64,000 bases of DNA, from positions 124,001 to 188,000 of the forward strand of contig LJSU01000028.1 of NCBI GenBank assembly GCA_001314705.1. The letters are read 5' to 3'. A program made the translations under genes and the position numbers. This DNA is from Rhodobacteraceae bacterium HLUCCO07 (lineage in GTDB: Bacteria > Pseudomonadota > Alphaproteobacteria > Rhodobacterales > Rhodobacteraceae). The notes beneath the pieces are model-generated. The model made no database searches. It worked only from the letters and a program-made list of their open reading frames with translations, and was not told the origin of the DNA. Of the stretch, positions 44,074 to 63,769 are shown piece after piece; the first letter of the stretch is position 1; each line of letters starts with the position of its first letter.

Positions 44074-44724
44074 ATGATCGACGCGGTGATCCTGCCGATG
44101 CAGCGCCGTTTGCTGCATCCGCCCGCGCGGGTGCTGGCGCGACTTGGCGTATCGCCCGATGCGATCACGCTTGCCGGTTTCGCAATCGGGAGTCTGGCGC
44201 TGCCGTTGCTGGCGCTGGGGTTTTTTGGCGCGGCGCTTGTCGCGGTCCTGCTCAACCGCTTGATGGACGGGCTTGACGGGGCGGTGGCTCGGATCACGGG
44301 GCCGTCGGATCGGGGCGCGTTTCTCGATATCGCGCTGGATTTCGTTTTTTACGCGCTGGTGCCGCTGGGGTTTGCGCTGGCCGCGCCGGATGCCAATGCC
44401 CTGCCGGCGGCGGTGCTCATCGCGGCGTTCGTGGGCACGGGGTCGTCGTTCCTGGCCTTCGCGGCGGTGATCGCCAGGGAGGGCCGCGCGGCCCCGGCCT
44501 ATCCGACCAAGGGGATCTACTACCTCGGCGGGTTGACCGAGGGGTTCGAGACCGTCGCGCTTTTCATCCTGATGTGCCTTTTCCCGGTGCATTTCCCGGT
44601 GCTCGCTTATATCTTCGCCGCGGCCTGCGCGCTGACCACGCTGACGCGGTGGCGTCAGGGCTGGGTCGCGCTGGGCGGCGCCGGCATGACATCCGTTCAA
44701 GACCGACCAGAGGAGTCACCATGA
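44074..44724 (+). CDS. ynjF: CDP-alcohol phosphatidyltransferase family protein (YnjF-like)
   Basis: LNRLMDGLDGAVARITGPSDRGAFLDIALDFVFY matches DGX2ARX8GX3DX3D. Confidence 0.88.
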   Translation: MIDAVILPMQRRLLHPPARVLARLGVSPDAITLAGFAIGSLALPLLALGFFGAALVAVLLNRLMDGLDGAVARITGPSDRGAFLDIALDFVFYALVPLGFALAAPDANALPAAVLIAAFVGTGSSFLAFAAVIAREGRAAPAYPTKGIYYLGGLTEGFETVALFILMCLFPVHFPVLAYIFAAACALTTLTRWRQGWVALGGAGMTSVQDRPEESP

Positions 44725-45911
44725 GATTTGCCCTGATCCTTTCCGTGATCGCCGCGCTTTTCGCCCGGCCCGCGTTGGCCGATGACTGGCAGGAGGTGCT
44801 GGACGCGGCGCGGGGCCAGACCGTGTACTGGAACGCATGGGGCGGCGACGAGCGGACCAATGCCTTCATCGACTGGGTCGGCCGCGAGGCCGAACGGCGC
44901 CACGGGGTCAGCATCAACCATGTCCGGCTGAGCGATACCGCCGAGGCGGTGACACGGGTGATTTCCGAGCGCGCGGCGGGCAGGGACAGCGGCGGGTCGG
45001 TCGATCTCATCTGGATCAACGGGCCGAATTTCCTGGCCATGAAGGAGCAGGATCTGCTCTACGGCCCCTTCGTGGAGCGGCTGCCCAATGCGCGGTTGGT
45101 CGATCTGTCGCCCGGGGCGCCGGCCGCGCTCGATTTCACCGTGCCGGTGGAGGGGATGGAAAGCCCGTGGCGGCTGGCGAAATTCGTGTTCAGTTACGAC
45201 AGCGCCCGGGTCGAGGCGCCGCCCGAGACGATGCGCGATTTCGTGGCCTGGGCCGAGGCGAATCCGGGGCGGTTCACCCATCCAGATCCGGCGAATTTCA
45301 TGGGGGCGACATTTCTCAAGCAGGCGCTGATCGAGCTGGCGCCGGACCCTGAGGTGCTGCTCGAGCCGGTGACGGATGAGAGTTTTGCCGCGCAGGCGGC
45401 GCCGCTCTGGGAGTGGTATGACGCGCTGCGTCCGAACATGTGGCGGCGGGGCGAGGCCCTTCCCGAGAACGAGTCGGTGCAACAGCAGTTGATGAATGAC
45501 GGGGTGATCGACATCGCGATGTCCTTCGATCCGGCCTCGACCGCGGCCGCCATCGCGCAGGGGCTTTTGCCCGAGAGCGCGCGGGTTTTCGTGCCCGAGG
45601 GCGGCACGATCGGCAACGTGAGTTTCGTGGCAATCCCCTATAACGCCGCCCATGCCGCGGGCGCGATGGTGGTGGCGAACCTGCTTCTGGACCCCGAGGT
45701 GCAGGCGCGGATGCAGAATATCGAGGTTCTGGGCTCGTTCTCGGTGCTCGATCCGGATCGGCTCGACGAGGCCGCGCAGGCCCGGTTCGAGGCGCTGCCC
45801 AGTGCCCCGGCGTTGCCCGGGCTCGACGATCTCGGCCCGACGCTGCCCGAGCCGCATGCCAGCTGGATGACGCGGCTGACCGAGGAATGGGCGCGGCGTT
45901 ACACGCGGTGA
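44721..45911 (+). CDS. ynjB: ABC transporter substrate-binding protein (YnjB-like)
   Basis: ARGQTVYWNAWGGDERTNAFIDWVGREAERRHGVSINHVRLSDTAEAVTRVISERAAGRDSGGSVDLIWINGPNFLAMKEQDLLYGPF. Confidence 0.88.
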   Translation: MRFALILSVIAALFARPALADDWQEVLDAARGQTVYWNAWGGDERTNAFIDWVGREAERRHGVSINHVRLSDTAEAVTRVISERAAGRDSGGSVDLIWINGPNFLAMKEQDLLYGPFVERLPNARLVDLSPGAPAALDFTVPVEGMESPWRLAKFVFSYDSARVEAPPETMRDFVAWAEANPGRFTHPDPANFMGATFLKQALIELAPDPEVLLEPVTDESFAAQAAPLWEWYDALRPNMWRRGEALPENESVQQQLMNDGVIDIAMSFDPASTAAAIAQGLLPESARVFVPEGGTIGNVSFVAIPYNAAHAAGAMVVANLLLDPEVQARMQNIEVLGSFSVLDPDRLDEAAQARFEALPSAPALPGLDDLGPTLPEPHASWMTRLTEEWARRYTR

Positions 45912-47635
45912 ACGGAATCGCGTCATCCACGCCGCCGGGCCGGGCGCTGCGGCTTGCCGTGCTGCTGGCGGTGGCGGGCGGGGTGATCCTGCCGATCATC
46001 GCCGGGCTTTGGGAGACAGCGCGGGCGGGCTTTGGCATCCTGCCGGCCATCGGCGCCAATCACCTGTCGCTTGAGCCGTGGCGGATGCTCGCCGAACTGC
46101 CCGGTCTGGGCACGAGCCTGAAACTCACGCTGCTGACCGGGCTGGGGGCGACGGTGTTGTCGCTGATCCTGGCGGCGGGGACATGCGCGGCAGTGCATGG
46201 CCGGATGAGCACCCGCACGGGCGGGCGGATGCTGACCCCGTTCCTGGCCGCGCCCCATGCCGCGGTGGCCATCGGCTTGGCCTTCCTGCTGTCGCCCTCG
46301 GGATGGATCGCGCGGGCGCTGGCGCCGCTTGTCGGGTGGGACAGGCCGCCGATGTTGATCACGGTCAACGATCCCTGGGGCGGGGCGCTCATTCTCGGGC
46401 TTCTGGTCAAGGAGGTGCCGTTCCTCATGCTGGTGATGCTTTCGGCGCTGAGCCAGATCGCGGTGGCGCGGCATATCGCGGTGGGGCGGGCGCTGGGCTA
46501 TGGGCGCGGGACCGTGTGGGTCAAGGTGATCCTGCCGCAGGTCTGGCCGCTGGTGCGGCTGCCGGTGATGGTGGTGCTGGCCTATTCGCTGTCGGTGGTC
46601 GACATGGCGCTGATCCTCGGCCCGTCGAACCCGCCGACGCTCGCGGTGATGCTGCTCCGGCTGTTCTCGGCGCCCGATACGGCGATGCTGTTGCCCGCCT
46701 CGGCGGGGGCGGTGCTTCAGGGGGTGCTGGTGGCGCTGTCCTTCGGCCTTCTGCTGCTGGTCGAGCGGGGGGTGAAGCGCGTCGGGCTGTGGTGGCTGAG
46801 ACGTGGCGGGCGGGGGCTTTCGGCCGAACCGGGATTGATGCTCACCACCGGGGTGACGGCGACGGTGATGATGGCGGGCGCGCTGGGCATGCTGGCGCTG
46901 GTGGTCTGGTCGCTGGCCTGGCGCTGGCCGTGGCCCGGGATGCTGCCCGAGAGCTGGTCGCCCGGGGCGTGGATGCGCCCCGGCGCGGGCTGGGGGTGGG
47001 CGCTGTGGCATACGGTGCTCTTGGCCTTTGCGACCACGGGGCTTGCGCTGGCGCTGGCGGTGGCCTGGCTCGAAGGCGAGGACCGGGCGCGGATGCGACG
47101 CGCGCGCTGGGCCGAGGCGCTCATTTACCTGCCGCTGCTGGTGCCGCAGATCGCCTTTCTCTACGGGCTCAACGTGCTTTTCCTGCGGATCGGTATTTCG
47201 GGCGGCATGGCAGCGGTGATCTGGGCGCAGGCGCTGTTCGTGTTTCCCTATGTCATGATCGCGTTGTCGGACCCGTGGCGGGCGCTTGACCCCGGGTTGC
47301 CACGGGCGGCGGCGGCGCTGGGTGCCGGGCCGTGGCGCAGGCTCTGGGCGGTGAAACTGCCGGTTCTGCTCACGCCGATCCTGACCGCGGCGGCGATCGG
47401 GGTGGCGGTGTCGGTGGCGCAATACCTGCCGACGCTCTTCATGGGGGCGGGGCGAATCGCGACCCTGACGACCGAGGCGGTGACGCTGTCGTCGTCCTCG
47501 GACAGGCGTGTGACGGGGGTTTACGCGACGCTACAGGCGGGGCTGCCCTTTGCGGCCTATGCGGCGGCGTTCCTCATTCCGGCGCTGGCGCATCGCAACC
47601 GGCGCGCGTTGCAGGGTGGGGGGCCGGGCACATGA
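45908..47635 (+). CDS. ynjC: ABC transporter permease, two permease domains (YnjC-like)
   Basis: Two sets of TM segments and EAA-like loops; GTG start overlaps ynjB stop. Confidence 0.87.
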   Translation: MNGIASSTPPGRALRLAVLLAVAGGVILPIIAGLWETARAGFGILPAIGANHLSLEPWRMLAELPGLGTSLKLTLLTGLGATVLSLILAAGTCAAVHGRMSTRTGGRMLTPFLAAPHAAVAIGLAFLLSPSGWIARALAPLVGWDRPPMLITVNDPWGGALILGLLVKEVPFLMLVMLSALSQIAVARHIAVGRALGYGRGTVWVKVILPQVWPLVRLPVMVVLAYSLSVVDMALILGPSNPPTLAVMLLRLFSAPDTAMLLPASAGAVLQGVLVALSFGLLLLVERGVKRVGLWWLRRGGRGLSAEPGLMLTTGVTATVMMAGALGMLALVVWSLAWRWPWPGMLPESWSPGAWMRPGAGWGWALWHTVLLAFATTGLALALAVAWLEGEDRARMRRARWAEALIYLPLLVPQIAFLYGLNVLFLRIGISGGMAAVIWAQALFVFPYVMIALSDPWRALDPGLPRAAAALGAGPWRRLWAVKLPVLLTPILTAAAIGVAVSVAQYLPTLFMGAGRIATLTTEAVTLSSSSDRRVTGVYATLQAGLPFAAYAAAFLIPALAHRNRRALQGGGPGT

Positions 47636-48285
47636 CGCTGGAGATCAAGGGGCTTTCGGTGCGTTACCGGCAAGAGCCATCGCTTTTCGCGCCGCTCGAC
47701 CTGTGCATCGAGAGCGGCGAGGTGGCCACGGTGATGGGGCCATCGGGGATCGGCAAGTCGACCCTGCTCGACGCGATCGGCGGGCACCTGGCGGCGGGGT
47801 TCACGATGACGGGTTCGGTCCGGCTCGACGGGCGGGAGGTTACGCAACTGCCACCCGAGGCGCGGCGCATCGGGCTGATGTTCCAGGATGCGGCGCTGTT
47901 TCCGCACCTGTCGGTGGGCGACAACCTGGCCTTTGGCCTCGCCCGCGCGATAGGCGGGCGGGCGGCGCGGCGCGCGGCAGTCGAGGCGGCACTGGAACAG
48001 GCCGGCCTGGGCGGGCTTTACGAGCGCGACCCGGCGACGCTTTCGGGCGGCCAGCGGGCGCGGGCGGCGCTGATGCGTACGCTACTGGCTGACCCGCAGG
48101 CGCTTTTGCTGGACGAGCCCTTTTCGAGGCTCGACGCGGCGCGGCGGGCCGCGGTGCGGGGGTTCACCTTTGCGCATATCCGCGACCGGGCTATTCCGGC
48201 GCTCATGGTCACGCATGACCCGGCCGATGCCGAGGCCACGGGGGGGCAGGTCCTGAGCCTGGTGACGGAAGGCGCCGGCGGGTGA
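47632..48285 (+). CDS. ynjD: ABC transporter ATP-binding protein (YnjD-like)
   Basis: GPSGIGKSTLLDAIGGHL, LSGGQRARAALMRTLLADPQALLLDEPFSRLD. Confidence 0.9.
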   Translation: MTLEIKGLSVRYRQEPSLFAPLDLCIESGEVATVMGPSGIGKSTLLDAIGGHLAAGFTMTGSVRLDGREVTQLPPEARRIGLMFQDAALFPHLSVGDNLAFGLARAIGGRAARRAAVEAALEQAGLGGLYERDPATLSGGQRARAALMRTLLADPQALLLDEPFSRLDAARRAAVRGFTFAHIRDRAIPALMVTHDPADAEATGGQVLSLVTEGAGG

Positions 48286-48316: not shown

Positions 48317-50521
48317 CTATTCCGGCGGCGCCGCGGCCAGGAGCGCCTCGATCTCGCGACGGGTATCGGCGCTTGCATCCACGCGCCTTCGCGAGGAGGC
48401 CAAGGGTGCCGGATCGTTTGAAGGTCCGGTCGCGTCAATGCGGGATGGTTGCCCGATTTCCGGGTTTGCAGGCGACCCTGCCAGCAACTCTTCCAGCGCC
48501 TCGACCTTGTCGTCGTCGCCCAGGCCCCGGTAGAGGGCCAGGGCCTGCTCGAAATTCCGCCTCGATTCGCTCAGCTGCGCGCGCAGCCTGTCGGCGCGTG
48601 CACCTTCGAGCCCGGACAGTTCGGCCGCGGCCATGTCGGGATTCCCGAGGTCGATTTGCGCCCTGGCCCGCAGGCGCCTGGCCGCCTGCATGTCGTGCCC
48701 GCGAAACGCCGGCCCCAGAAGATCGACGGCCGAATCTGGAAAGCCGAGCGCGACAAGCCGGTCCGCGATGCCGAAAACGGTCTCGGAGACAAGCTCGTTC
48801 AGGGTATCGGGTGTCAGGGCGAGAGCGGCCGACAGGAACACCGGGTCGGATGCCTTGCGCGCCATGCGATCATGGAGGAAATCCTGCGCCTGGCGAAAGG
48901 CGTCGCCATCGACATCGGCCCGGAGCCCCGCCAGCGCATCAAGGGATTCGGAAAATGCATCCGAAAGGGTCAGCGCGACAACCGTGGAGAACCGAAGCTC
49001 GGCGGAGAGTTCGTTCGTGGAATACTCCTTTTGAAGGATGCGTGCCATTTGTGCGGTGTCATAATCGATCGATCCGTCCTCGCGCATCTTTCGCGAGATC
49101 AGTTCGATCATGGCCCTCGGCGAGGTTTCGTGGTTCTGTTCGGTCAATTCCGTCAGTGTTTCATACGCCTCGCCGGCCCGGTTCTCGTCATCGCGGATCA
49201 GGGCGCCGGCCAGTTTCGCGTTCGGATCCGCCGCCGCGCCGCTGCGCGCCGCGAGCCTGAGCACCTCTTTCGCGTCCTGCGGCATGTCGAGCGATCGAAA
49301 CCGCTCGCTCAGGGCCCCGGCAAGATGCGTGCGCAAGGTGGACGGCAGCCGGTCAAAGGCGGTCAGCACGGCCGACGGGTCGACTTCCGTTCCGATCGCG
49401 CCTGCCTCATGGCTCAGCATCGACCAGAGCGCGGCTTCGTTGTCGCATGACAGCGCATCCGCGAACATGTTCTGCCCGGGGACCGTGCCGGTCTCGATCA
49501 GCGACGCGATGGCCACGAGATGCCCGGCATCGTCGACGAACTCCTCGAGGACAAGCATGGCCTCGGCCCCGAAGCCGAAGAAGATGTAGACCTTTGCCAA
49601 CTCAAGGGCGATCTCCCGCCTCGACCGATCGAATTCTCCGTAAAGCTCGGATCTGAGCCTGCCGATGGCGGTCGTGAAATGCCCCTCGCGTGCCCAATCC
49701 GCGATATCCAGGTCCTTTTCGACGAGACAGGTTTCATCCCTCGTTGCCGCCATTGCGGCGAGCCGGTCTCGTGGTTCGGGCTTGTCGGCGCCGTTGCGAA
49801 TGGCGAGGTTCACGCCTTGCAACCCCTCGCCGTCCACGTCTTGCAGGGCCGTGGTCACAAGGTCCTGCAACGCGTCCGGCCGTCGCTGCTCCTTCGCGTC
49901 GGTATCGGGCTGTTCCGCGGTCGCGTGCGGCGTGATCGTCGGGCTTGCAGAAGCGGCCCCCGGTATCCGGCGCCGTGGAGCACTCTTCGGTTTCTTGTCG
50001 TCCCCGGCCTCCTGCGGCGGGTCAGCAGGCGGCGCCATGGCCGGTGTCGTCGCATGGTTCGCGCGCAGGACGGCGTTGTCGATCCAGAAGGTCGTGAGGA
50101 AATCGGCCCGCTCGCGTTCATCTGCCTCATCGGGGCTTGCGGATCGGCGTTCGCTCACGTCGACGACCAGCATGGTGCCGCCGAAGAGAAAGGCATTGAC
50201 CGCGCAATCGCAATTCAGGCCGACCCGCAGAACCCCGTCCCGTTGCCCCTGTTCGACCGCTCCGATGCGATCCGCATTCAGCCGGGACCTGGCGGCAGAC
50301 AGATCGAAGCTCAGGTCAGGCGCCTCGAACACGAGGTCGAAACGGGTTTCATGCTCGACCATCCGCCATGCGAGGCTGCGGGGCAGATCGAGCGCCAGCC
50401 GGGTGAACCCCTCATGCTCGCCCCCGCGCACCCGGATCGTTTCGGCCGCCACGCCGTGGGCGGCCAGATGAAAGGCCATCAGCAGGGCCAGGGACAACCA
50501 CTTTCGACAGACTGTCGGCAT
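48317..50521 (-). CDS. Large secreted protein of unknown function in the motA/motE locus (helical/TPR-like)
   Basis: 734 aa; signal peptide MPTVCRKWLSLALLMAFHLAAHGVAAE; N-terminal RVRGGEHEGFTRLALDLP region, low-complexity linker, helical repeats; 2 nt after motA stop. Confidence 0.7.
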   Translation of the reverse strand: MPTVCRKWLSLALLMAFHLAAHGVAAETIRVRGGEHEGFTRLALDLPRSLAWRMVEHETRFDLVFEAPDLSFDLSAARSRLNADRIGAVEQGQRDGVLRVGLNCDCAVNAFLFGGTMLVVDVSERRSASPDEADERERADFLTTFWIDNAVLRANHATTPAMAPPADPPQEAGDDKKPKSAPRRRIPGAASASPTITPHATAEQPDTDAKEQRRPDALQDLVTTALQDVDGEGLQGVNLAIRNGADKPEPRDRLAAMAATRDETCLVEKDLDIADWAREGHFTTAIGRLRSELYGEFDRSRREIALELAKVYIFFGFGAEAMLVLEEFVDDAGHLVAIASLIETGTVPGQNMFADALSCDNEAALWSMLSHEAGAIGTEVDPSAVLTAFDRLPSTLRTHLAGALSERFRSLDMPQDAKEVLRLAARSGAAADPNAKLAGALIRDDENRAGEAYETLTELTEQNHETSPRAMIELISRKMREDGSIDYDTAQMARILQKEYSTNELSAELRFSTVVALTLSDAFSESLDALAGLRADVDGDAFRQAQDFLHDRMARKASDPVFLSAALALTPDTLNELVSETVFGIADRLVALGFPDSAVDLLGPAFRGHDMQAARRLRARAQIDLGNPDMAAAELSGLEGARADRLRAQLSESRRNFEQALALYRGLGDDDKVEALEELLAGSPANPEIGQPSRIDATGPSNDPAPLASSRRRVDASADTRREIEALLAAAPPE

Positions 50522-50523
50522 TC

Positions 50524-51390
50524 TCAGGCTTCCTTGCGCAGGTCCTTGAGCGATTTCTCAAGCTCCGAAAAGCTCGGGCGGCGGTTGATGGGAATGTTCT
50601 GACGTCCCACCTCGATGCAGATATTGGCCGAATGGTTGTGCAGGTTCGCGATCAGGATTTCGCGGATCAGGTGATAGAAATGTTCATCCTCCTCGACCAC
50701 GTTCCGGACCTTGGCCGAGAACGGGCCGACGAAGCCGTAGGAAAGAAAGACGCCGAGGAACGTCCCGACAAGGGCGCCGCCGATCATCTTGCCCAGGATC
50801 TCGGGCGGTTGGTCGATCGACCCCATGGTCTTGATGACGCCCAGGACCGCGGCGACAATGCCGAGCGCGGGCAACCCGTCCGCCATGTTCTGAAGCGCGT
50901 GGCTGGAATGCAGGGAATGATGCAGGTTTGCCTCCATTCGCTTGTCCAGCACCTCTTCGACCTGGTGGGGATCATCATAGTTCATGGATGCAGAGCGCAA
51001 TGTGTCGGCGATCAGTTCGACCGCCTCCCTGTCGGTGACGATCTTGGGATACCTTTGGAAAATCGCGCTGTTTTCGGGATCTTCCACGTGTTCTTCGATC
51101 GCGACCGGGCTGGTTCGGGCCAGCCTGATCAACTCGTAAAGCAGGCAGATCAGATCGCGGTAATCCTCCGGTTTCCAGTTCGGTCCCTTGAAGACCTTTC
51201 TGATATCCTTGAGCGTCTTCTTCACCGCATGCAGGTCATTGGAAATCAGAAAGGCACCGATCGCGGCGCCACCGATCATCATCAGCTCGAATGGCAACGC
51301 CTTCATGATGATGCCAATGTTTCCGCCCGCGAGCAGGTAGCCCCCGAAAACCATCGAGAGAACCACCCCGATACCGATAATTCCGTTCAT
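50524..51390 (-). CDS. motA: Flagellar motor stator protein MotA
   Basis: GVVLSMVFGGYLLAGGNIGIIMKALPFELMMIGGAAIGAFLI; AVLGVIKTMGSIDQPPEILGKMIGGALVGTFLGVFLSYGFVGPF. Confidence 0.95.
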   Translation of the reverse strand: MNGIIGIGVVLSMVFGGYLLAGGNIGIIMKALPFELMMIGGAAIGAFLISNDLHAVKKTLKDIRKVFKGPNWKPEDYRDLICLLYELIRLARTSPVAIEEHVEDPENSAIFQRYPKIVTDREAVELIADTLRSASMNYDDPHQVEEVLDKRMEANLHHSLHSSHALQNMADGLPALGIVAAVLGVIKTMGSIDQPPEILGKMIGGALVGTFLGVFLSYGFVGPFSAKVRNVVEEDEHFYHLIREILIANLHNHSANICIEVGRQNIPINRRPSFSELEKSLKDLRKEA

Positions 51391-51458: not shown

Positions 51459-52076
51459 TCAATTCTTCGGGCCGAGCGCACTTCGCCCGGCGAGTATCGC
51501 GCTGATGGAATAGGCGCGCTCGGCGCTCAGGCCCGCCATGATCCCGGCCGCCGCCTCGGGCTTCATCCGGGCCAGGAACCCGGCGGAAAAGTCCGGGTCC
51601 ATTTCCTCGAACAGGACGGATGCGTCCTTGGACTTCATGTTTTCATAGACCGCGGTGAGCGTTTCCAGATCGCGTTCGGAGGCACCGTCGGCGACGTCGA
51701 TCGTGCGTTTCAGCTCGGTTTCCGCGGCTTTCAACTCGCTCAGCCGGTGTTCGATCCGGGCTTCTGCCGCAGCGAGATCCTGCAACCTTTGTTCCAGTTG
51801 TGCTTCTCGCTGCTCAAGGCGGTTTTCCCGCTTCGTCAGGGCGTCGAGGACGGCGCTTACCTCGGACTCCTGCATTGGGGCCGTGTCCTCGTCCTTGCCG
51901 TTGGGTTCCTCGGCCTCGGGCTGTCCTGCGGTCTGATCGGCAAGGACGCCGCCCACATTGGTTCCCAGGCGCAGCAAACCGGAGGCCATCAGGAAGAAGG
52001 CGACAAGAAACAGGGCCCGTCCGACCGGGCGCATGCGGCGTCGGGCTCTTGCCGATCGCTTGGCGATGGCGACCAT
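51459..52076 (-). CDS. MotE-family protein (TM + coiled coil + MgtE-N-like C-terminus)
   Basis: Single TM, long coiled coil, VYENMKSKDASVLFEEMDPDFSAGFLARMKPEAAAGIMAGLSAERAYSISAILAGR. Confidence 0.8.
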   Translation of the reverse strand: MVAIAKRSARARRRMRPVGRALFLVAFFLMASGLLRLGTNVGGVLADQTAGQPEAEEPNGKDEDTAPMQESEVSAVLDALTKRENRLEQREAQLEQRLQDLAAAEARIEHRLSELKAAETELKRTIDVADGASERDLETLTAVYENMKSKDASVLFEEMDPDFSAGFLARMKPEAAAGIMAGLSAERAYSISAILAGRSALGPKN

Positions 52077-52079
52077 GCG

Positions 52080-52442
52080 TCAGTCCTTCCCGCCTGCGTG
52101 CCTCAGGAACACCGGCTCGGACCCGTCGGGCGGCGATGACCCGGTCTCTTCCGGCGCCTCGGTGATGTCGTGCATCGACGCGAGCAGCAGTTCCAGCCTC
52201 TTGGCGGCCAGCTCGGCCCGGTCGGTCAGGCCCGAGATCGATTCGGTGGTGGTGGAGGCGGCATCCCTGACCTCGCTCAATGTCGAGGTGAGATCATCGA
52301 CCTGCATCGAGAGCAGCGCCACGGCCCGTCCGACCCCGGATTCCAGATCGTTGAACCGCGCGAGACGCCTTGCGATGACGAAGCAGTAGATCCCGGCCCC
52401 CAACGCACCTGCAACCAATAGAATATCCGCAACGAATTGCAT
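52080..52442 (-). CDS. Small N-terminally anchored coiled-coil membrane protein, unknown function
   Basis: 120 aa between motE-like and fliL; MQFVADILLVAGALGAGIYCFVIARRLARFNDLESGVGRAVALLSMQVDDLTSTLSEVR. Confidence 0.65.
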   Translation of the reverse strand: MQFVADILLVAGALGAGIYCFVIARRLARFNDLESGVGRAVALLSMQVDDLTSTLSEVRDAASTTTESISGLTDRAELAAKRLELLLASMHDITEAPEETGSSPPDGSEPVFLRHAGGKD

Positions 52443-52451
52443 TGAAGCCCC

Positions 52452-52958
52452 CTAGATTACCGCGAATTCCATGATCAGAAGATCGTTGACCTTGCCCTCT
52501 CCGATGACCGTCTTGATCCGTCGCAGGATCTGCCCGCGAATTCGAACAAGCGCGGCGGAATCCGCTATGTCGGTATAGTCCAGGGCTCGCAAATATCCGT
52601 TAATGACATCCGCAACGCGCGGCAGGAACCTGGTCACGTCGCCCTGGAATTCGGATGGAACCTCGAGTTGCGCGCGAAAGCGAAGGTGCCTGTTTTCCCC
52701 GTCCGTCCGAAGTTGAACGACGATCGGCTCGATCGGCACGAAACGAACATCGGGCATGTCGTCGGCATCGCTTTCCCGCGCCTCGAATCGCCCGATGTCA
52801 GGGTTTGAACCCATCGGGATATATCCCGAATAGGCCGCGTAGAAACCGCCGGCGGCGCCGATGATCCCGATGGTCAGGCCCATGAAAAGAAAGGCTTTCG
52901 AGCGCTTCTTTCCACCGCCTTCACCGGCCTCGTCATTTTCGTCTTGCGTGTCCGCCAT
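52452..52958 (-). CDS. fliL: Flagellar basal body-associated protein FliL
   Basis: KAFLFMGLTIGIIGAAGGFYAAYSGYI; FVPIEPIVVQL...RIRGQILRRIKTVIGEGKVNDLLIMEFAVI. Confidence 0.85.
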   Translation of the reverse strand: MADTQDENDEAGEGGGKKRSKAFLFMGLTIGIIGAAGGFYAAYSGYIPMGSNPDIGRFEARESDADDMPDVRFVPIEPIVVQLRTDGENRHLRFRAQLEVPSEFQGDVTRFLPRVADVINGYLRALDYTDIADSAALVRIRGQILRRIKTVIGEGKVNDLLIMEFAVI

Positions 52959-56409: not shown

Positions 56410-58470
56410 CTAGCGACGCCCTTCCCTGAGCCACGCCAGGATCAGCAGGCCGGCTGCCAGCAGGAGCGACAACCATGCGGGCAACAGGGCGCGCGTTTTC
56501 ATGTCCGTGACGTCATAGGCCGCGCGCGGGGTGATGCCCAGCCAGCCGCGCCCCGTTGCCGGCCTTCCCGTCTTGACCGTTCGGATGGTCGGCATCCCCT
56601 CGCTCAGGCGTTTCGAGCCGCCGCGATGTGCCTCCAGAACGGGTTCGATCCAGTCCGGCCCTGCAACGGAGTCGACGAATTCGCGCGGCGAGACCGGCCC
56701 GAGACCCACCAGGGCGGATTTCTCGTCGTCGGACAACCGGTAAAGCCCGATCTCGTCGCCCTCGGCGGTGCCCTCGAACACGCCCGGAGTGCTTTCGACC
56801 AGCCGGTGTTCAGAGGATTCGCCATCCGGCGACGTGACCGTGACGGGGGCGGCCGTGTCGGCCAGCGTGCGCCGGGTGATCTTGATATTCTTGCCATCGG
56901 GCTCGGCGACAAGATCTTCCTCCTCGAGCTCGGGCTCCTTCATCATCCAGTGCGAAAGGCGCCGCAGCAAGTCCAGTTGCGGCCCGCCGCCTTCGAAACC
57001 GCGGTTCCAGAGCCAGGCGTGATCCGACGCCAGGAGCGCGATCCGCCCCTCGCCGACCCGGTCGAGGACCAGCAGCGGCGCACCCTCGTGTCCATCCATG
57101 ACGACATGACCGTCACGCTCTTCTACCGGTGTCACCTCGATCTGGCGCATCCAGCGGCCCCAATCGGCAGGCTGATCGGATGCATCGAGGTTTGACGTGA
57201 CGGGGTGGCGCTTGCCAAGCTCGCTCACCTTCGGGCGATATCCGCGCTCGATCACCCTGGCGGTCGGGCTTGCGGGCAGAACCTCGGAGAGGGGCGAGCG
57301 GAAAATGCTGTCGGCGCTGGCGAAATCCGGACCCGCCGCGACGAGGACGGCCCCGCCTCCCTCGACATACTGGCGCACATTGTCGAGATAGACCGAGGGC
57401 AGAATCCCCCGCCGCTTGTAGCGGTCGAAGATGATCAGGTCGAAATCGTCGATCTTCTCGATGAACAATTCCCGGGTGGGAAAGGCGATGAGCGAAAGCT
57501 CCCCGACCGGAACGCCATCCTGCTTTTCCGGTGGTCTGAGGATCGTGAAATGCACCAGATCCACGGAGCTGTCGGATTTCAGGAGATTGCGCCATGTCCG
57601 GCTGCCTGGATGTGGCTCACCCGAGACGAGAAGCACGCGCAGGCGGTCCCGGACGCCGTTGACCTGCACCAGCGCGATATTGTTGCGCGCCGTCAGTTCG
57701 CCCTCGGTCTCGGGCGTCGATATCTGAAAGACATTGCGACCGGTGTGATTGATCTGGATCGGGATGTCGACGGATCGCCCCACCGGGACGTCAAGACTGA
57801 CAGGCGGCTCGCCATCGACCGATACCTCGAGCGGGGCAACGGAGGCGTCGTCGGGCACCGCGCCGCTGTCCTCGACCCGGACCGTGAGCGTGACCTCCTC
57901 GTCGAGAATGGCAAAGGCCGGTGCATCTTCGACAACGATCTGCCGATCCCAGTCGGATGGCTCACCGGTCAATAGCAGGTGCATCGGCGCGGACAGGTCG
58001 GGGGCATTCTCGACATCGTGAATCCGGCCGTCGCTGATCAGGAAAACGCCGGAAATTCGCGAACGTGGTTCCTTGTTCAGGGCGCGGGTGAGCGCGGTCA
58101 TGAGCCGCGTCCCGCTATCCCCTTCGCCATCGTCCACATCGACGCGGCGTATCTCGGTGTCGCCGAGGTTCGAGAGGCGGGTTTCGAGTTCCTCGAAGGC
58201 GGTTTCGGATTGCCCGGCCCTGTCTCCGAGGGTCTGGCTGGCGCTGTTGTCGACCACGACGATGGCGATATCGTTCAGCGCCTGCCGCTCCTCCTGCTGA
58301 ATGCGCGGAGACAGCAAGGCCAGGATCAGGACGGCGGCCCCGAGCAATCGGAACACCCAGCCCGACAGGCCACGCCAGACGGCCAGTCCCAGGAGGACGG
58401 CGGTGATCAGCGCGAGCACGGCAATGATCGGCCAGGGCAGAAGCGGTATGAAGACGACGGATGTGTTCAT
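56410..58470 (-). CDS. Membrane protein, VWA/glutamine-amidotransferase-like, of the MoxR-DUF58-BatA cluster
   Basis: TM segments at both ends, IAIVVVDNSASQ, DLIIFDRYKRRGILPSVYLDNVRQYVEGGGAVLVAAGP. Confidence 0.72.
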   Translation of the reverse strand: MNTSVVFIPLLPWPIIAVLALITAVLLGLAVWRGLSGWVFRLLGAAVLILALLSPRIQQEERQALNDIAIVVVDNSASQTLGDRAGQSETAFEELETRLSNLGDTEIRRVDVDDGEGDSGTRLMTALTRALNKEPRSRISGVFLISDGRIHDVENAPDLSAPMHLLLTGEPSDWDRQIVVEDAPAFAILDEEVTLTVRVEDSGAVPDDASVAPLEVSVDGEPPVSLDVPVGRSVDIPIQINHTGRNVFQISTPETEGELTARNNIALVQVNGVRDRLRVLLVSGEPHPGSRTWRNLLKSDSSVDLVHFTILRPPEKQDGVPVGELSLIAFPTRELFIEKIDDFDLIIFDRYKRRGILPSVYLDNVRQYVEGGGAVLVAAGPDFASADSIFRSPLSEVLPASPTARVIERGYRPKVSELGKRHPVTSNLDASDQPADWGRWMRQIEVTPVEERDGHVVMDGHEGAPLLVLDRVGEGRIALLASDHAWLWNRGFEGGGPQLDLLRRLSHWMMKEPELEEEDLVAEPDGKNIKITRRTLADTAAPVTVTSPDGESSEHRLVESTPGVFEGTAEGDEIGLYRLSDDEKSALVGLGPVSPREFVDSVAGPDWIEPVLEAHRGGSKRLSEGMPTIRTVKTGRPATGRGWLGITPRAAYDVTDMKTRALLPAWLSLLLAAGLLILAWLREGRR

Positions 58471-61226
58471 TGTCCCAGCCTGTCCAGAAGCGCAGGCACA
58501 TGGACCTGGTCCGATTTGTAGTTCCCGGTCAGCACGTACATGACTAGGTTGACCCCGAAGCGGTAGGCCATTTCACGCTGGCGATCCCCGGCAACGCCGC
58601 GTCCCACGGGGAAGCTCGGGTTTCCGCGCTCATCCACCGCCCAGGCCGCTGCCCAGTCGTTGCCGCCGATCACGACCGGCGTCACACCGTCGTTGAGATT
58701 GCGGAACGGCATGCCCTCGGCCTGTTCCGCGTCCGGCGGCGATGCCTCGACCCAGATGTCGCGATCGCGGTGTCGCCCCGGGAATTCCTTCAACAGGTAG
58801 AAGGTGCGCATGAGCACATGATCGGACGGAACAGGCTCGATTTGCGGAATGTCGAGTGGTCGCGCCAGTTGCTGAAGCTTGCGGCCATTCGGGCTTGCCG
58901 TGCCATAGCCCGAGATGTCGCCGTCGCGCGTGTCGAAAAGGATCATCCCGCCCGAGCGCAGATACTGGTTGAGCTTGTCATAGGCGCGCTCCGAGGGTCG
59001 GGCCTGTTCGGGTGTGATCGGCCAGTAGATGATCGGGTAAAAGGCCAGCTCGTCCTGTTCGAGGTCGACGCCGATCGGCGTGCCCGGCTCCACCGATGTG
59101 CGCTGAGAGAGAGTTTGCGACAAGCCCGTCAGGCCGGCATGAGCGGTGTCGTCAATGCTGTTGTCGCCGGTCAGGACATGCGCGAAAACGACCTCGGAGG
59201 TGGCACGGATCGCGCGTTCGTCATCGGCCGTGGCCTTTGGCGGCGCGATCAGGATCGCCAACGCCAAGACACTGGCGGCGCTCGCCCCGCGCGCGATGTA
59301 AAGCCGCCCCGACAGGGCCAGAGAGGCGAGGATATCGAAGCAGAGCAAGGCAAGTGACAAGGCCAGGAACCACCCGGCAAGTGGAGTTTCGCCGTTGCGC
59401 GTCATGCCCAGAACCCGGGCATTCTCGGGCCAGTTCATCTCGGCCAGTTGATCCCCGGGCGCAAAGACATTTCGCGCGATCACCCGGTCGTCCCGTTGGT
59501 AGAGGCCCGCGCGCATCTCCTCGCCCAGCGTCTCTGTGACAAGCGATTCACCATCGACGCCGGGCAGGTTGCTGCCATCTTCAAGCCTGCCATATCCGTC
59601 GAGAACGAGGACCGGCTCCCAGAAGGTGTCGGAAAGATCCTGCTCCCCGTCGGGGGTGCTGACGGATGCGACGGACAGACGATCCAGCATGTCGACGAAA
59701 AGCCCGGAGAGCGGCAGGCTCGACCATTCGGCATTGGCGGTGACGTGAAAGAAGGTCACCCGCCCGTCGCCCAATCCCTTGCTTGTGACAAGTGGGGTGT
59801 CATCGCTCAACCGCGCCAGAACGCGATCCGACAATGACGGGTCGGGCTGGGCCAGCACCTGTGCATTCACGGTGACATCGTCAGGGATGTTCAGACCGGC
59901 AAAGGGCGAATCGTCGTCAAATGGCGCTAGCGTCTTGGGCTCGCCCCAGCTCATCGCGCCGCCGACCGTGCGCCCGCCCGCGCGCAGCCTGACCGGCATG
60001 AGGGGATGCTCGTCCTCGCGGCTGATTTCGCTGGCCGCGACGCGTGGACCGGCGAACCGCAAGAGCTGCCCGCCCTCTTCGACCCATTCGGTCAGGGCGG
60101 CCTCGTCATCGGGGGCAAGTTCGGCGATGTCGGCAAGGATCACCACGTCGGGATTGGCGGGCAGAACCTCGCCCAGCGCCCCTTCGAGGAGTTCCGCATT
60201 CGGTTGCAGGGCGTTTCGCAGGAAATGCAGGGGCGACAACAATTCGAGCCCTTCACGATCCTCGCGCGTCGAGATGAGCGCCACCTCGCGGCGTCCGAGA
60301 CTGTCATCGCTGAGGGCCACGGCGCCGGCACTTTCGACCCCCTCGAGGGCCAGCCGCGAGATTCGGCCACGCATTTCCGCGGGGAGCGACCGGCTTTCGG
60401 TGATGTCGGCCTGATCCGGTTCGAAGGCCAATTCCTGCTCGTCGAGGACCGTCTCGCTTCCGTTCGGATCGGTTCCGATGAACTGCACCGTGGCGGACTG
60501 CGCGGTCCCGGTCGCCGACCGTGACAGGTCGAACTCGATCGCGCCATCCTTGTAGCGCGGCGCGGTGATGGCCTGCACCGGCCGGTCGGCCTCGAGGATC
60601 GTGGTGCGCCCCGACCCCTGGAACGTCTCGAAAAGCGCCTCGCGCCCGTCGCGTGCCAAACCATCGGACAGCCAGACGGTTTCCATGTCATCACGCTCGG
60701 GCAGCAGTGCGGCAAATCGCTCCATCCGCTCGGGCGTGGGCAGCCACGGGGCCGGGTGCAGCCCGGCGAGGGTGTCGCGCAGGTCGGATGCAGAGACGAA
60801 GACCGGCGCTTCGGGGCGGCCGGCCAGGAGGCTCACCGCCGCCGTGCGGCCCGCCCGGCTTGCCTCGGCCAACAGTTCGTCGACCTTCTGAATCCGCGCA
60901 TCCCAGTCATCGGCACTGGCCCAGCCGCCGTCCATCACCACGAGAAGCGGCCCCTGGCCGACTGCACCGCGCTCATCGGGGTTCAGCACCGGGCCGGCCA
61001 ACCCGATGATGATCGCCGCCACCGCAAGCGTGCGCAGCAGCAAGAGCCACCAGGGCGTGCGGTCCGAAATGCTGTCATCGTCCTTGAGGCCAAGGAGAAG
61101 AGTAACCGCCGGAAATCGCCTGCGGATCGGGGCCGGGGGGACCGCGCGCAGCAGGATCCACAGCACCGGCAGCGCGATCAGGGCGAGAAGCAGCCAGGGG
61201 GCCGTAAAGGCAAGTGCACCCATCAT
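58467..61226 (-). CDS. BatA-domain/DUF4159-type membrane protein
   Basis: LAFTAPWLLLALIALPVLWILLRAVPP BatA N-term; C-term DELAFYPIIYWPITPEQARPSERAYDKLNQYLRSGGMILFDTRDGD. Confidence 0.83.
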   Translation of the reverse strand: MMGALAFTAPWLLLALIALPVLWILLRAVPPAPIRRRFPAVTLLLGLKDDDSISDRTPWWLLLLRTLAVAAIIIGLAGPVLNPDERGAVGQGPLLVVMDGGWASADDWDARIQKVDELLAEASRAGRTAAVSLLAGRPEAPVFVSASDLRDTLAGLHPAPWLPTPERMERFAALLPERDDMETVWLSDGLARDGREALFETFQGSGRTTILEADRPVQAITAPRYKDGAIEFDLSRSATGTAQSATVQFIGTDPNGSETVLDEQELAFEPDQADITESRSLPAEMRGRISRLALEGVESAGAVALSDDSLGRREVALISTREDREGLELLSPLHFLRNALQPNAELLEGALGEVLPANPDVVILADIAELAPDDEAALTEWVEEGGQLLRFAGPRVAASEISREDEHPLMPVRLRAGGRTVGGAMSWGEPKTLAPFDDDSPFAGLNIPDDVTVNAQVLAQPDPSLSDRVLARLSDDTPLVTSKGLGDGRVTFFHVTANAEWSSLPLSGLFVDMLDRLSVASVSTPDGEQDLSDTFWEPVLVLDGYGRLEDGSNLPGVDGESLVTETLGEEMRAGLYQRDDRVIARNVFAPGDQLAEMNWPENARVLGMTRNGETPLAGWFLALSLALLCFDILASLALSGRLYIARGASAASVLALAILIAPPKATADDERAIRATSEVVFAHVLTGDNSIDDTAHAGLTGLSQTLSQRTSVEPGTPIGVDLEQDELAFYPIIYWPITPEQARPSERAYDKLNQYLRSGGMILFDTRDGDISGYGTASPNGRKLQQLARPLDIPQIEPVPSDHVLMRTFYLLKEFPGRHRDRDIWVEASPPDAEQAEGMPFRNLNDGVTPVVIGGNDWAAAWAVDERGNPSFPVGRGVAGDRQREMAYRFGVNLVMYVLTGNYKSDQVHVPALLDRLGQ

Positions 61227-62101
61227 CGGCGCGCTCCGTCGATCGCCTGATACAGCCAGAGCAGGGCGGATTGCGCGCTTTCGCTGGTATGGTGGCAATG
61301 ATAACGCCACCCGACCACGGCGCACATGGCTTCAAGCTCGGCCTTTCGGCGCGCCAGCCTTTCCAGATAGTTCTCGCGCAGTTCGGACGCCTTGAGCGTT
61401 TCATGCGAGAGTGATCCGGCGACGCTTTCGAAAAGGGTGCGTCCCCGGAACGGGAAGCTTTCCTCGGCCGGGTCGAGCACCTGAAACAGAACGCCGCGCA
61501 CGCCGCGATCCGCCGCATCGGTCAGCGCCGACAGAACGGGGGCGGGATCGGCAAGGAAATCGGACATGAACACCGCGGACGCATGGGCAATCAGGCCGCG
61601 TGTGTCGGGCGCGGCATAGTCGGCATCCTGATCCTCGGACAGCGCCTGGGCCAGCCGGGTGATCTGAACCTCGCCGCGCCGCGGGGGCAGCAACCCGCCC
61701 AACAGGCCGACACGTTCGCCGGCCCGCAACAGCAGGATCGAGAGGGCCAGCCCGATCAATCGCGCGCGGTCGGACTTGTCCGGGAGGGTATCCGAACTGG
61801 CAAAGCGCATCGAGGCGGCAGGATCGATCCAGAGCTGCACACTTTGCGCGATCTGCCATTCCTTTTCACGCACGAACTGCGTGTCGGAGCGGGCCGAGCG
61901 CCGCCAGTCGATCATTCGCCGCGAATCCCCGGCCTGCATCGGGCGGTATTGCCAGAAATCGTCACCCTGCCCGGCGCGGCGGCGCCCATGCTCGCCCATG
62001 AGAACGGACCCGGCCAGATGGTCGGCCCGGGCGAGCAGATACGGAAGACGCGACGCCTCCTGTTCGGCCGTCTGCTTGAGAGAGGACGGGCTCTGGCTCA
62101 C
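61223..62101 (-). CDS. DUF58 domain-containing protein
   Basis: AGQGDDFWQYRPMQAGDSRRMIDWRRSARSDTQFVREKEWQIAQSVQLWIDPAASM. Confidence 0.9.
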   Translation of the reverse strand: MSQSPSSLKQTAEQEASRLPYLLARADHLAGSVLMGEHGRRRAGQGDDFWQYRPMQAGDSRRMIDWRRSARSDTQFVREKEWQIAQSVQLWIDPAASMRFASSDTLPDKSDRARLIGLALSILLLRAGERVGLLGGLLPPRRGEVQITRLAQALSEDQDADYAAPDTRGLIAHASAVFMSDFLADPAPVLSALTDAADRGVRGVLFQVLDPAEESFPFRGRTLFESVAGSLSHETLKASELRENYLERLARRKAELEAMCAVVGWRYHCHHTSESAQSALLWLYQAIDGARR

Positions 62102-63105
62102 GCAGCGGCCTCGTGGCGCAGGATATCGCGTGCCACCGTGTCGATCAGATCCGTCAGGCTGTCGCCGCGTGCGCGGGCAGCGAAATTGAGGGCCATGCGG
62201 TGGCTCAGGACCGGCCGGGCCATGGCAAGGATGTCATCCGGCCCCGGCGCCAACCGTCCTTCGAGCAGGGCGCGTGCCCTGACCGTCAGCATGAGCGCCT
62301 GCGCGGCGCGCGGCCCGGGACCCCAGGCCACGTTGGTGCGGATGGTTTCGCTCGCGGTCGGGTCGTCGGGACGAAAGGCACGGACCAGATCGAGGATCTG
62401 CTCCACGATCGCATCCCCGACCGGCATTCGCCGCAGCAGGTTTTGCGCGGCGATCAGGTCAGACGCGGAAAACACGTTCTCTGCCTGTTGTTCGGTCTCC
62501 CCGGTCGTTTCCAGAAGGATGGATTTCTCGGTGTCCCGGTCCGGGTATGCGACGTCGATCTGCACGAGGAATCGGTCGAGCTGTGCCTCGGGCAGGGGGT
62601 AGGTGCCTTCCTGTTCGATCGGGTTCTGCGTGGCGAGAACATGAAACGGCGTCTCAAGCGCCCGGTCCTTGCCCGCAACGGTGACGCGCCGCTCCTGCAT
62701 GGCCTGAAGCAGGGCGGATTGCGTGCGCGGGCTGGCGCGGTTGATTTCATCGGCCATCAGAAGCTGGCAGAACACCGGCCCCTCGATGAACTTGAAGCTG
62801 CGGCTGCCATCAGCGCCGGTTTCGAGCACCTCGCTGCCCAGGATATCCGAGGGCATGAGGTCGGGCGTGAATTGAACCCGGTTTCCTTCGAGTCCCATCA
62901 CCGTCGAAAGCGTTTCGACCAGCCGTGTCTTTCCAAGGCCGGGCAGCCCGATCAAAAGCCCGTGACCGCCGCAAAGAAGCGCCGAAAGCGTCAGGTCGAC
63001 AACCGAGCCCTGGCCGATGAAACGCCGCGTGATCGAGGCCTTGGCGCGGGCAAGCCGCTCTTCGAGCGCCTCGATCTCGGGGACCAGGGTTTCGGAATGG
63101 GACAT
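62098..63105 (-). CDS. MoxR-family AAA ATPase
   Basis: GLPGLGKTRLVETLSTVMGLEGNRVQFTPDLMPSDILG, LLMADEINRASPRTQSALLQAMQERRVT, LATQNPIEQEGTYPLPEAQLDRFL. Confidence 0.95.
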   Translation of the reverse strand: MSHSETLVPEIEALEERLARAKASITRRFIGQGSVVDLTLSALLCGGHGLLIGLPGLGKTRLVETLSTVMGLEGNRVQFTPDLMPSDILGSEVLETGADGSRSFKFIEGPVFCQLLMADEINRASPRTQSALLQAMQERRVTVAGKDRALETPFHVLATQNPIEQEGTYPLPEAQLDRFLVQIDVAYPDRDTEKSILLETTGETEQQAENVFSASDLIAAQNLLRRMPVGDAIVEQILDLVRAFRPDDPTASETIRTNVAWGPGPRAAQALMLTVRARALLEGRLAPGPDDILAMARPVLSHRMALNFAARARGDSLTDLIDTVARDILRHEAAA

Positions 63106-63160
63106 GGAAAAACTCCTGCAGTTCGGATAGCCTTGGGTGAGTGTAACGCGCGGAACAGGA

Positions 63161-63769
63161 ATGGCAAAAGCTATGAGCGGACAAATGACCGTGAACCCGT
63201 CATTGGAAGGGGTTGTTGCCTCGGCAAAGGCTGCCAAGGGCGCGAAGGGCCTGCCCCCGGTGCACAAGTGGAATCCGCCGTTTTGCGGTGATCTCGACAT
63301 GCGGATCGCGCCGGATGGCACGTGGTACTATCTCGGAACGCCGATCGGGCGCCCGGAATTGGTCAGGCTGTTTTCCACCATATTGCGCAAGGACGGGGAC
63401 GACTATTTCCTGGTGACCCCGGTCGAAAAGGTGGGAATCACGGTGGATGATGCGCCCTTCGTGGCGGTCGATTTCACGCGCGAAGGCGAGGGCCGGGACC
63501 AGGTCTTGACCTTTGGCACAAATGTCGGGGACCATGCGGCGGCGTCCGCAGAGAACCCGATCCGGGTCGAGATCGACGCCGATACCGGTGAGCCAAGACC
63601 CTATGTCCTGATTCGCGCGAACCTGGAAGCCCTGATCGACCGGAAGAGCTTCTACCGCCTTGTCGAGCTTGGAGCGCAACACGAGATTGACGGCGTCGAT
63701 TGGTTCGGCGTGTGGTCCGGCGGGGTGTTCTTTCCCATCCTCAGATCATCGGACATGGATGACACTTGA
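63161..63769 (+). CDS. DUF1285 domain-containing protein (start uncertain)
   Basis: [63 protein letters not shown]. Confidence 0.87.

Follow-up and report, generated by a model that had tools for sequence, protein, structure and literature searches.

A probable motK (CP4) homologue behind motA in a flagellar gene cluster of a Rhodobacteraceae bacterium

Results

The window, that is the whole stretch of 64,000 nucleotides of Rhodobacteraceae bacterium HLUCCO07 that was analysed, carries on its minus strand an open reading frame of 734 aa with an ATG start (48317..50521), which is the putative motK (CP4) homologue studied here. The sequence confirms the position given by the first-pass annotation, which had the frame start 2 nt after motA: the TGA stop of motA is followed by GA and then directly by the ATG. 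At the base composition of the window 734 sense codons would arise by chance with a probability of about 6e-9, and the GC content by codon position (0.71/0.48/0.78) has the shape of a coding sequence. This reading frame is a real gene.

Upstream and on the same strand lie the stator gene motA (50524..51390, TIGR03818 4e-110), the gene motE or CP3 (51459..52076), which belongs to the E-ring family and is a relative of FlgY/FlbB, the 120 aa reading frame CP2 at the pflI position (52080..52442, assigned by gene order and family profile; PMC10954123, PMC12363192) and fliL (52452..52958, PF03748 2e-13). A motE-like gene just upstream of motA had already been recognised on first reading, and its product matches the Pfam model MgtE_N (5e-6, above the cut-off) as well as the NCBIfam FlbB collar model (5e-6, below the cut-off). 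Probably the genes form one operon fliL-pflI(CP2)-motE(CP3)-motA-motK with fliL as the first and motK as the last gene. Divergent from this cluster, on the opposite strand, are fliF, a fliH-like gene, fliN and fliP. The gene motB lies outside the window but on its contig, about 5.4 kb past the window end and about 20 kb from motK.

The flagellar cluster is split in the window (19117-50521). One part, at about 15-20 kb, comprises sltF-like, flhA, fliR and flhB genes, the other, at 48-53 kb, motK-motA-motE-fliL, and about 28 kb of other genes separate the two. This is unlike most relatives, where flhA or sltF follows directly 3′ of motK. Genes of an ABC importer (solute-binding protein, permease and ATPase; 44574-48285, plus strand) run toward the 3′ end of motK and stop about 30 nt short of it; the same ABC-transporter gene adjoins motK in a relative from the same genus (L002). 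On the other side a MoxR ATPase, a DUF58 protein, a BatA/DUF4159 protein and a 686-aa protein are encoded in a row (56410-63321, minus strand), which adjoins fliP and is convergent with it. A search for CtrA-like sites found no exact TTAA-N6-8-TTAA, and the loose pattern occurs near chance level.

The anatomy of the protein was derived from an AlphaFold2 model computed with 55 family members (mean pLDDT 82.7), and it is as first described, namely a signal peptide, an N-terminal domain, a linker and a helical, TPR-like C-terminal region. The Sec signal peptide (residues 1-26, 50444..50521, minus strand as all following features) was read by eye as MPTVCRKWLSLALLMAFHLAAHGVAA with the cut before E. 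Among the 55 relatives Ala26 is conserved to 90% or more, and the protein is probably exported to the periplasm, as judged from its sequence. The signal peptide is followed by an AMIN-like beta domain (residues 27-124, 50150..50443; pLDDT mostly >90), which is assigned from Pfam matches in family members and from Foldseek, by a linker rich in Ala, Pro and Asp (about residues 125-261, 49739..50149), which is disordered in the model at about 140-260, and by helical pairs forming a TPR-like superhelix (residues 263-680, 48482..49735). Within the beta domain a CxC motif is conserved at positions 104/106, each cysteine being present in 50 of 55 members, and in the superhelix Cys265 and Cys359 are invariant (55/55). 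Disulphides from these conserved cysteines are possible.

With the N-terminal domain alone (pLDDT 93) as Foldseek query against the PDB, the best match was the AMIN domain of AmiC (4bin, E 7e-4); the AMIN domain of PilQ appears lower in the list and small heat-shock domains match too, more weakly. The full chain found as best PDB match chain K of 9hmf, a flagellar scaffold of Campylobacter jejuni, with an E-value of 6e-6 over 789 columns but a low TM-score (0.15) and with generic TPR proteins close behind. The TM-score is low probably because the linker and the curvature of the superhelix differ. From its length (773 residues) and its architecture this chain is most likely PflA. A single-sequence search of the PDB with the 734-aa protein gave no match, and the family profile retrieved nothing there beyond coatomer epsilon and generic TPR proteins. 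Of the folds named for comparison on first reading, TPR was recovered and FimV was not: the fold is AMIN plus TPR, and a FimV-like protein was dropped as a candidate. An amidase was dropped likewise.

Pfam detects the AMIN-like domain in 29 of 48 family members, the protein of the window not being among them; in the latter neither Pfam AMIN nor TPR exceeds the cut-off. More generally no Pfam or NCBIfam family model scores over cut-off for this protein, and therefore motK can be expected to carry the label "hypothetical protein" still in many genomes.

A motK homologue is present in 26 of 61 genomes searched, all of them in the family of the window. In every case it is the immediate, same-strand neighbour of motA, mostly with a 4-nt overlap with the motA stop. 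The family is represented by 37 genomes. MotA1 exceeds the cut-off in 28, and the motK homologue accompanies it in 26 of these 28 as compared to 0 of the 9 genomes without MotA1 (Fisher p 4e-7 for 37 genomes, uncorrected for relatedness). The family profile found no motK in the two exceptions, G008 and G025, or in the nine MotA-less genomes, while the same profile matches in G000 and G061. In G008 the motA gene is close to a motB that diverges from it, and the cluster is of another type. G025 (L032, 3728-5833) has kept fliL, motE and motA, and an unrelated 235-aa reading frame occupies the place of motK before flhA; this genome is a natural experiment on whether motK is dispensable. Plasmid records yielded one weak match only, in Paroceanicella.

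A scan for MotA in which the next gene was read led to 80 loci from named organisms, almost all of them Rhodobacterales. According to the family profile motK adjoins motA in 79 of 79 testable loci (1e-67 to 1e-197), the 80th ending just past motA. The start of motK lies at -4 relative to the motA stop in 59 and at -1 in 18 of the 79 loci, which suggests translational coupling of the two genes. The order fliL-CP2-motE-motA-MotK is found in 76 of 80 loci; flhA follows in 70, and in 36 a sltF-like gene comes next after motK. Phaeobacter italicus has the same order as published for Phaeobacter inhibens, sltF and flhA included.

Discussion

The gene at 48317-50521 is probably the orthologue of motK of Cereibacter sphaeroides and of CP4 of P. 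inhibens. We base this assignment on gene order, on the anatomy of the protein and on the match of relatives from the Rhodobacter group (Pseudorhodobacter, Tabrizicola, Gemmobacter and Rhodobacter MAGs). Sequence identity across the MotK family is only 20-30%; the family profile finds strong matches in another member of the genus Phaeobacter and in relatives of Cereibacter. In C. sphaeroides the fla2 operon reads fliL2-pflI-motE-motA2-motK, and MotK is a periplasmic protein with an AMIN-like N-terminus and a TPR-like remainder, is essential for rotation and interacts with MotE and MotB2 (PMC10954123). The window has the corresponding cluster fliL-pflI-motE-motA-motK, and its protein shares with MotK a predicted signal peptide, the AMIN-like beta domain, the disordered linker, the helical TPR part and disorder near the C-terminus. 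It differs in length (734 aa versus 652 aa) and in sequence, as low similarity is expected across this family. A homologue has also been named in Dinoroseobacter, Dshi_3259 (PMC10954123).

In P. inhibens the order is fliF, fliL, CP2, CP3, motA, CP4, sltF, flhA (PMC12363192). The gene of the window shares with CP4 the place after motA in a fla1-type cluster, and the family is found there in P. italicus and Phaeobacter sp. J2-8 too; unlike in P. inhibens, where sltF and flhA then follow, these two genes are about 28 kb away in the window. The Phaeobacter study calls CP1-4 enigmatic and order-specific and mentions neither MotK nor MotE (PMC12363192). When the two gene orders are aligned, CP2 takes the place of PflI, CP3 that of MotE and CP4 that of MotK, which relates the three to the E-ring and the spokes now resolved in Campylobacter. 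Two separate literatures, on Phaeobacter CP2/CP3/CP4 and on Cereibacter PflI/MotE/MotK, are joined in this way. The phenotypes reported are that CP2 and CP3 mutants of P. inhibens have no flagella (PMC12363192) and that the motE mutant of C. sphaeroides is flagellated (PMC10954123).

The first-pass annotation had proposed a periplasmic motor protein, and membership in the MotK/CP4 family, gene order, co-occurrence with MotA and the fold all support this, with MotE and the stator as partners. It had also considered that the protein may be an undescribed stator-scaffold component. This part does not hold, as the name motK and the first tests of the gene date from 2024 (PMC10954123) and the need of CP4 for motility was demonstrated in 2025 (PMC12363192), and an undescribed scaffold was dropped from consideration. 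At this place in the gene order motK is the expected, standard gene; the finding is ordinary and already known.

Very probably the gene of the window is a motK (CP4) orthologue whose product would act as a periplasmic radial spoke of the PflA type and recruit, position or activate the MotAB stators. For this reading our analysis provides family, position, co-occurrence and domain folds; localisation, binding and phenotype were reported by others for relatives, and the geometry of the spoke we infer. PflA forms the spoke of the C. jejuni motor (PMC12222027, PMC11870540; structure 9HMF) and has a beta-sandwich at its N-terminus, then an unstructured linker and 16 TPRs (PMC12222027). The protein of the window resembles it in the AMIN-like beta-sandwich, the unstructured linker, the TPR superhelix and a probable E-ring protein partner, and its best full-chain fold match is most likely PflA. 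It differs in that there is no detectable sequence similarity and that PflA belongs to the motor of Campylobacterota. Published work groups MotK and MotC with PflA.

We suggest that the TPR superhelix of MotK would extend from the MotE ring, the E-ring layer, outward to the stators. The AMIN end could touch the peptidoglycan or an outer partner by means of the flexible linker. MotK might then recruit, fix or activate the MotAB stators and would thus be a spoke which joins the MotE layer to the MotB stators and possibly to the peptidoglycan too.

The protein could instead be a true MotC orthologue of the Sinorhizobium type. Both are periplasmic TPR proteins which partner MotE, MotC of Sinorhizobium meliloti depending on MotE, and a 2026 review deems MotC and MotK homologues by structure (PMC13023049). 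The MotC gene, however, is found downstream of motB and its product has no AMIN domain (PMC13023049, PMC10954123), whereas here AMIN is present, the gene follows motA and motB is far away. The MotC-like position suggested by the first-pass annotation is only loosely true because motC of S. meliloti follows motB and not motA (PMC10954123). The NCBIfam model NF009440, used as a possible MotC model, had no match, not even in the controls, and so does not bear on this question. We regard orthology with MotC as unlikely.

Still less do we expect MotK to be mainly a factor for flagellar assembly or export, a chaperone or a guard against premature assembly outside the rotor/stator machinery. Tomasch et al. 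consider a function of this kind for the CP proteins, and the exoproteome of the delta-CP4 mutant contains fewer flagellar proteins than that of the wild type (PMC12363192). The transposon mutants of CP4 (PGA1_c35690), which are immotile and can be complemented, nevertheless still release FliC, FlgK and FlgE (PMC12363192). Against such a factor is further that C. sphaeroides motK mutants carry flagella which are paralysed, and that MotK-sfGFP is located at the pole together with the hook in a focus depending on MotA2/MotB2 (PMC10954123). The coupling of motK to motA likewise speaks against it. The AMIN fold itself, and the sltF-like gene that often comes next, would agree with a peptidoglycan-binding guide which, together with SltF, opens the cell wall for the rod, as AMIN guides AmiC. 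Such a function seems highly improbable to us: MotK lacks an amidase domain, its long TPR part and the neighbours motA and motE would be left unexplained, and sltF is remote from motK in the genome of the window.

A modest extra, and a lead, is a wider AMIN-TPR family in other alphaproteobacterial families. When the MotK family profile was run on 240 genomes across the class, matches were found in 113. The wider family was read at 20 of the strongest places among these matches, and 15,354 shuffled or reversed decoy reading frames gave none. Each of the 20 places has one long reading frame of about 870-1420 aa from stop to stop, 19 have a match to the motE profile within the same 9-14 kb, and a separate profile of the N-domain finds two AMIN copies in 9. 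No BLAST similarity was reported between MotK and the proteins of Caulobacteraceae (PMC10954123), and the profile may bridge part of this gap. On balance we favour the view that the larger AMIN-TPR proteins encoded next to motE belong together with the Rhodobacterales MotK to a single family of PflA-type spokes that can be detected from sequence, and that the AMIN domain was repeatedly duplicated or lost within it; CP2-CP4 would then be a widespread E-ring/spoke module rather than inventions of the Rhodobacterales. Among the places, L133, L136, L138, L139, L141, L143, L145, L146 and others carry AMIN-TPR proteins of about 1,000-1,400 aa beside motE, often with a tandem AMIN pair.
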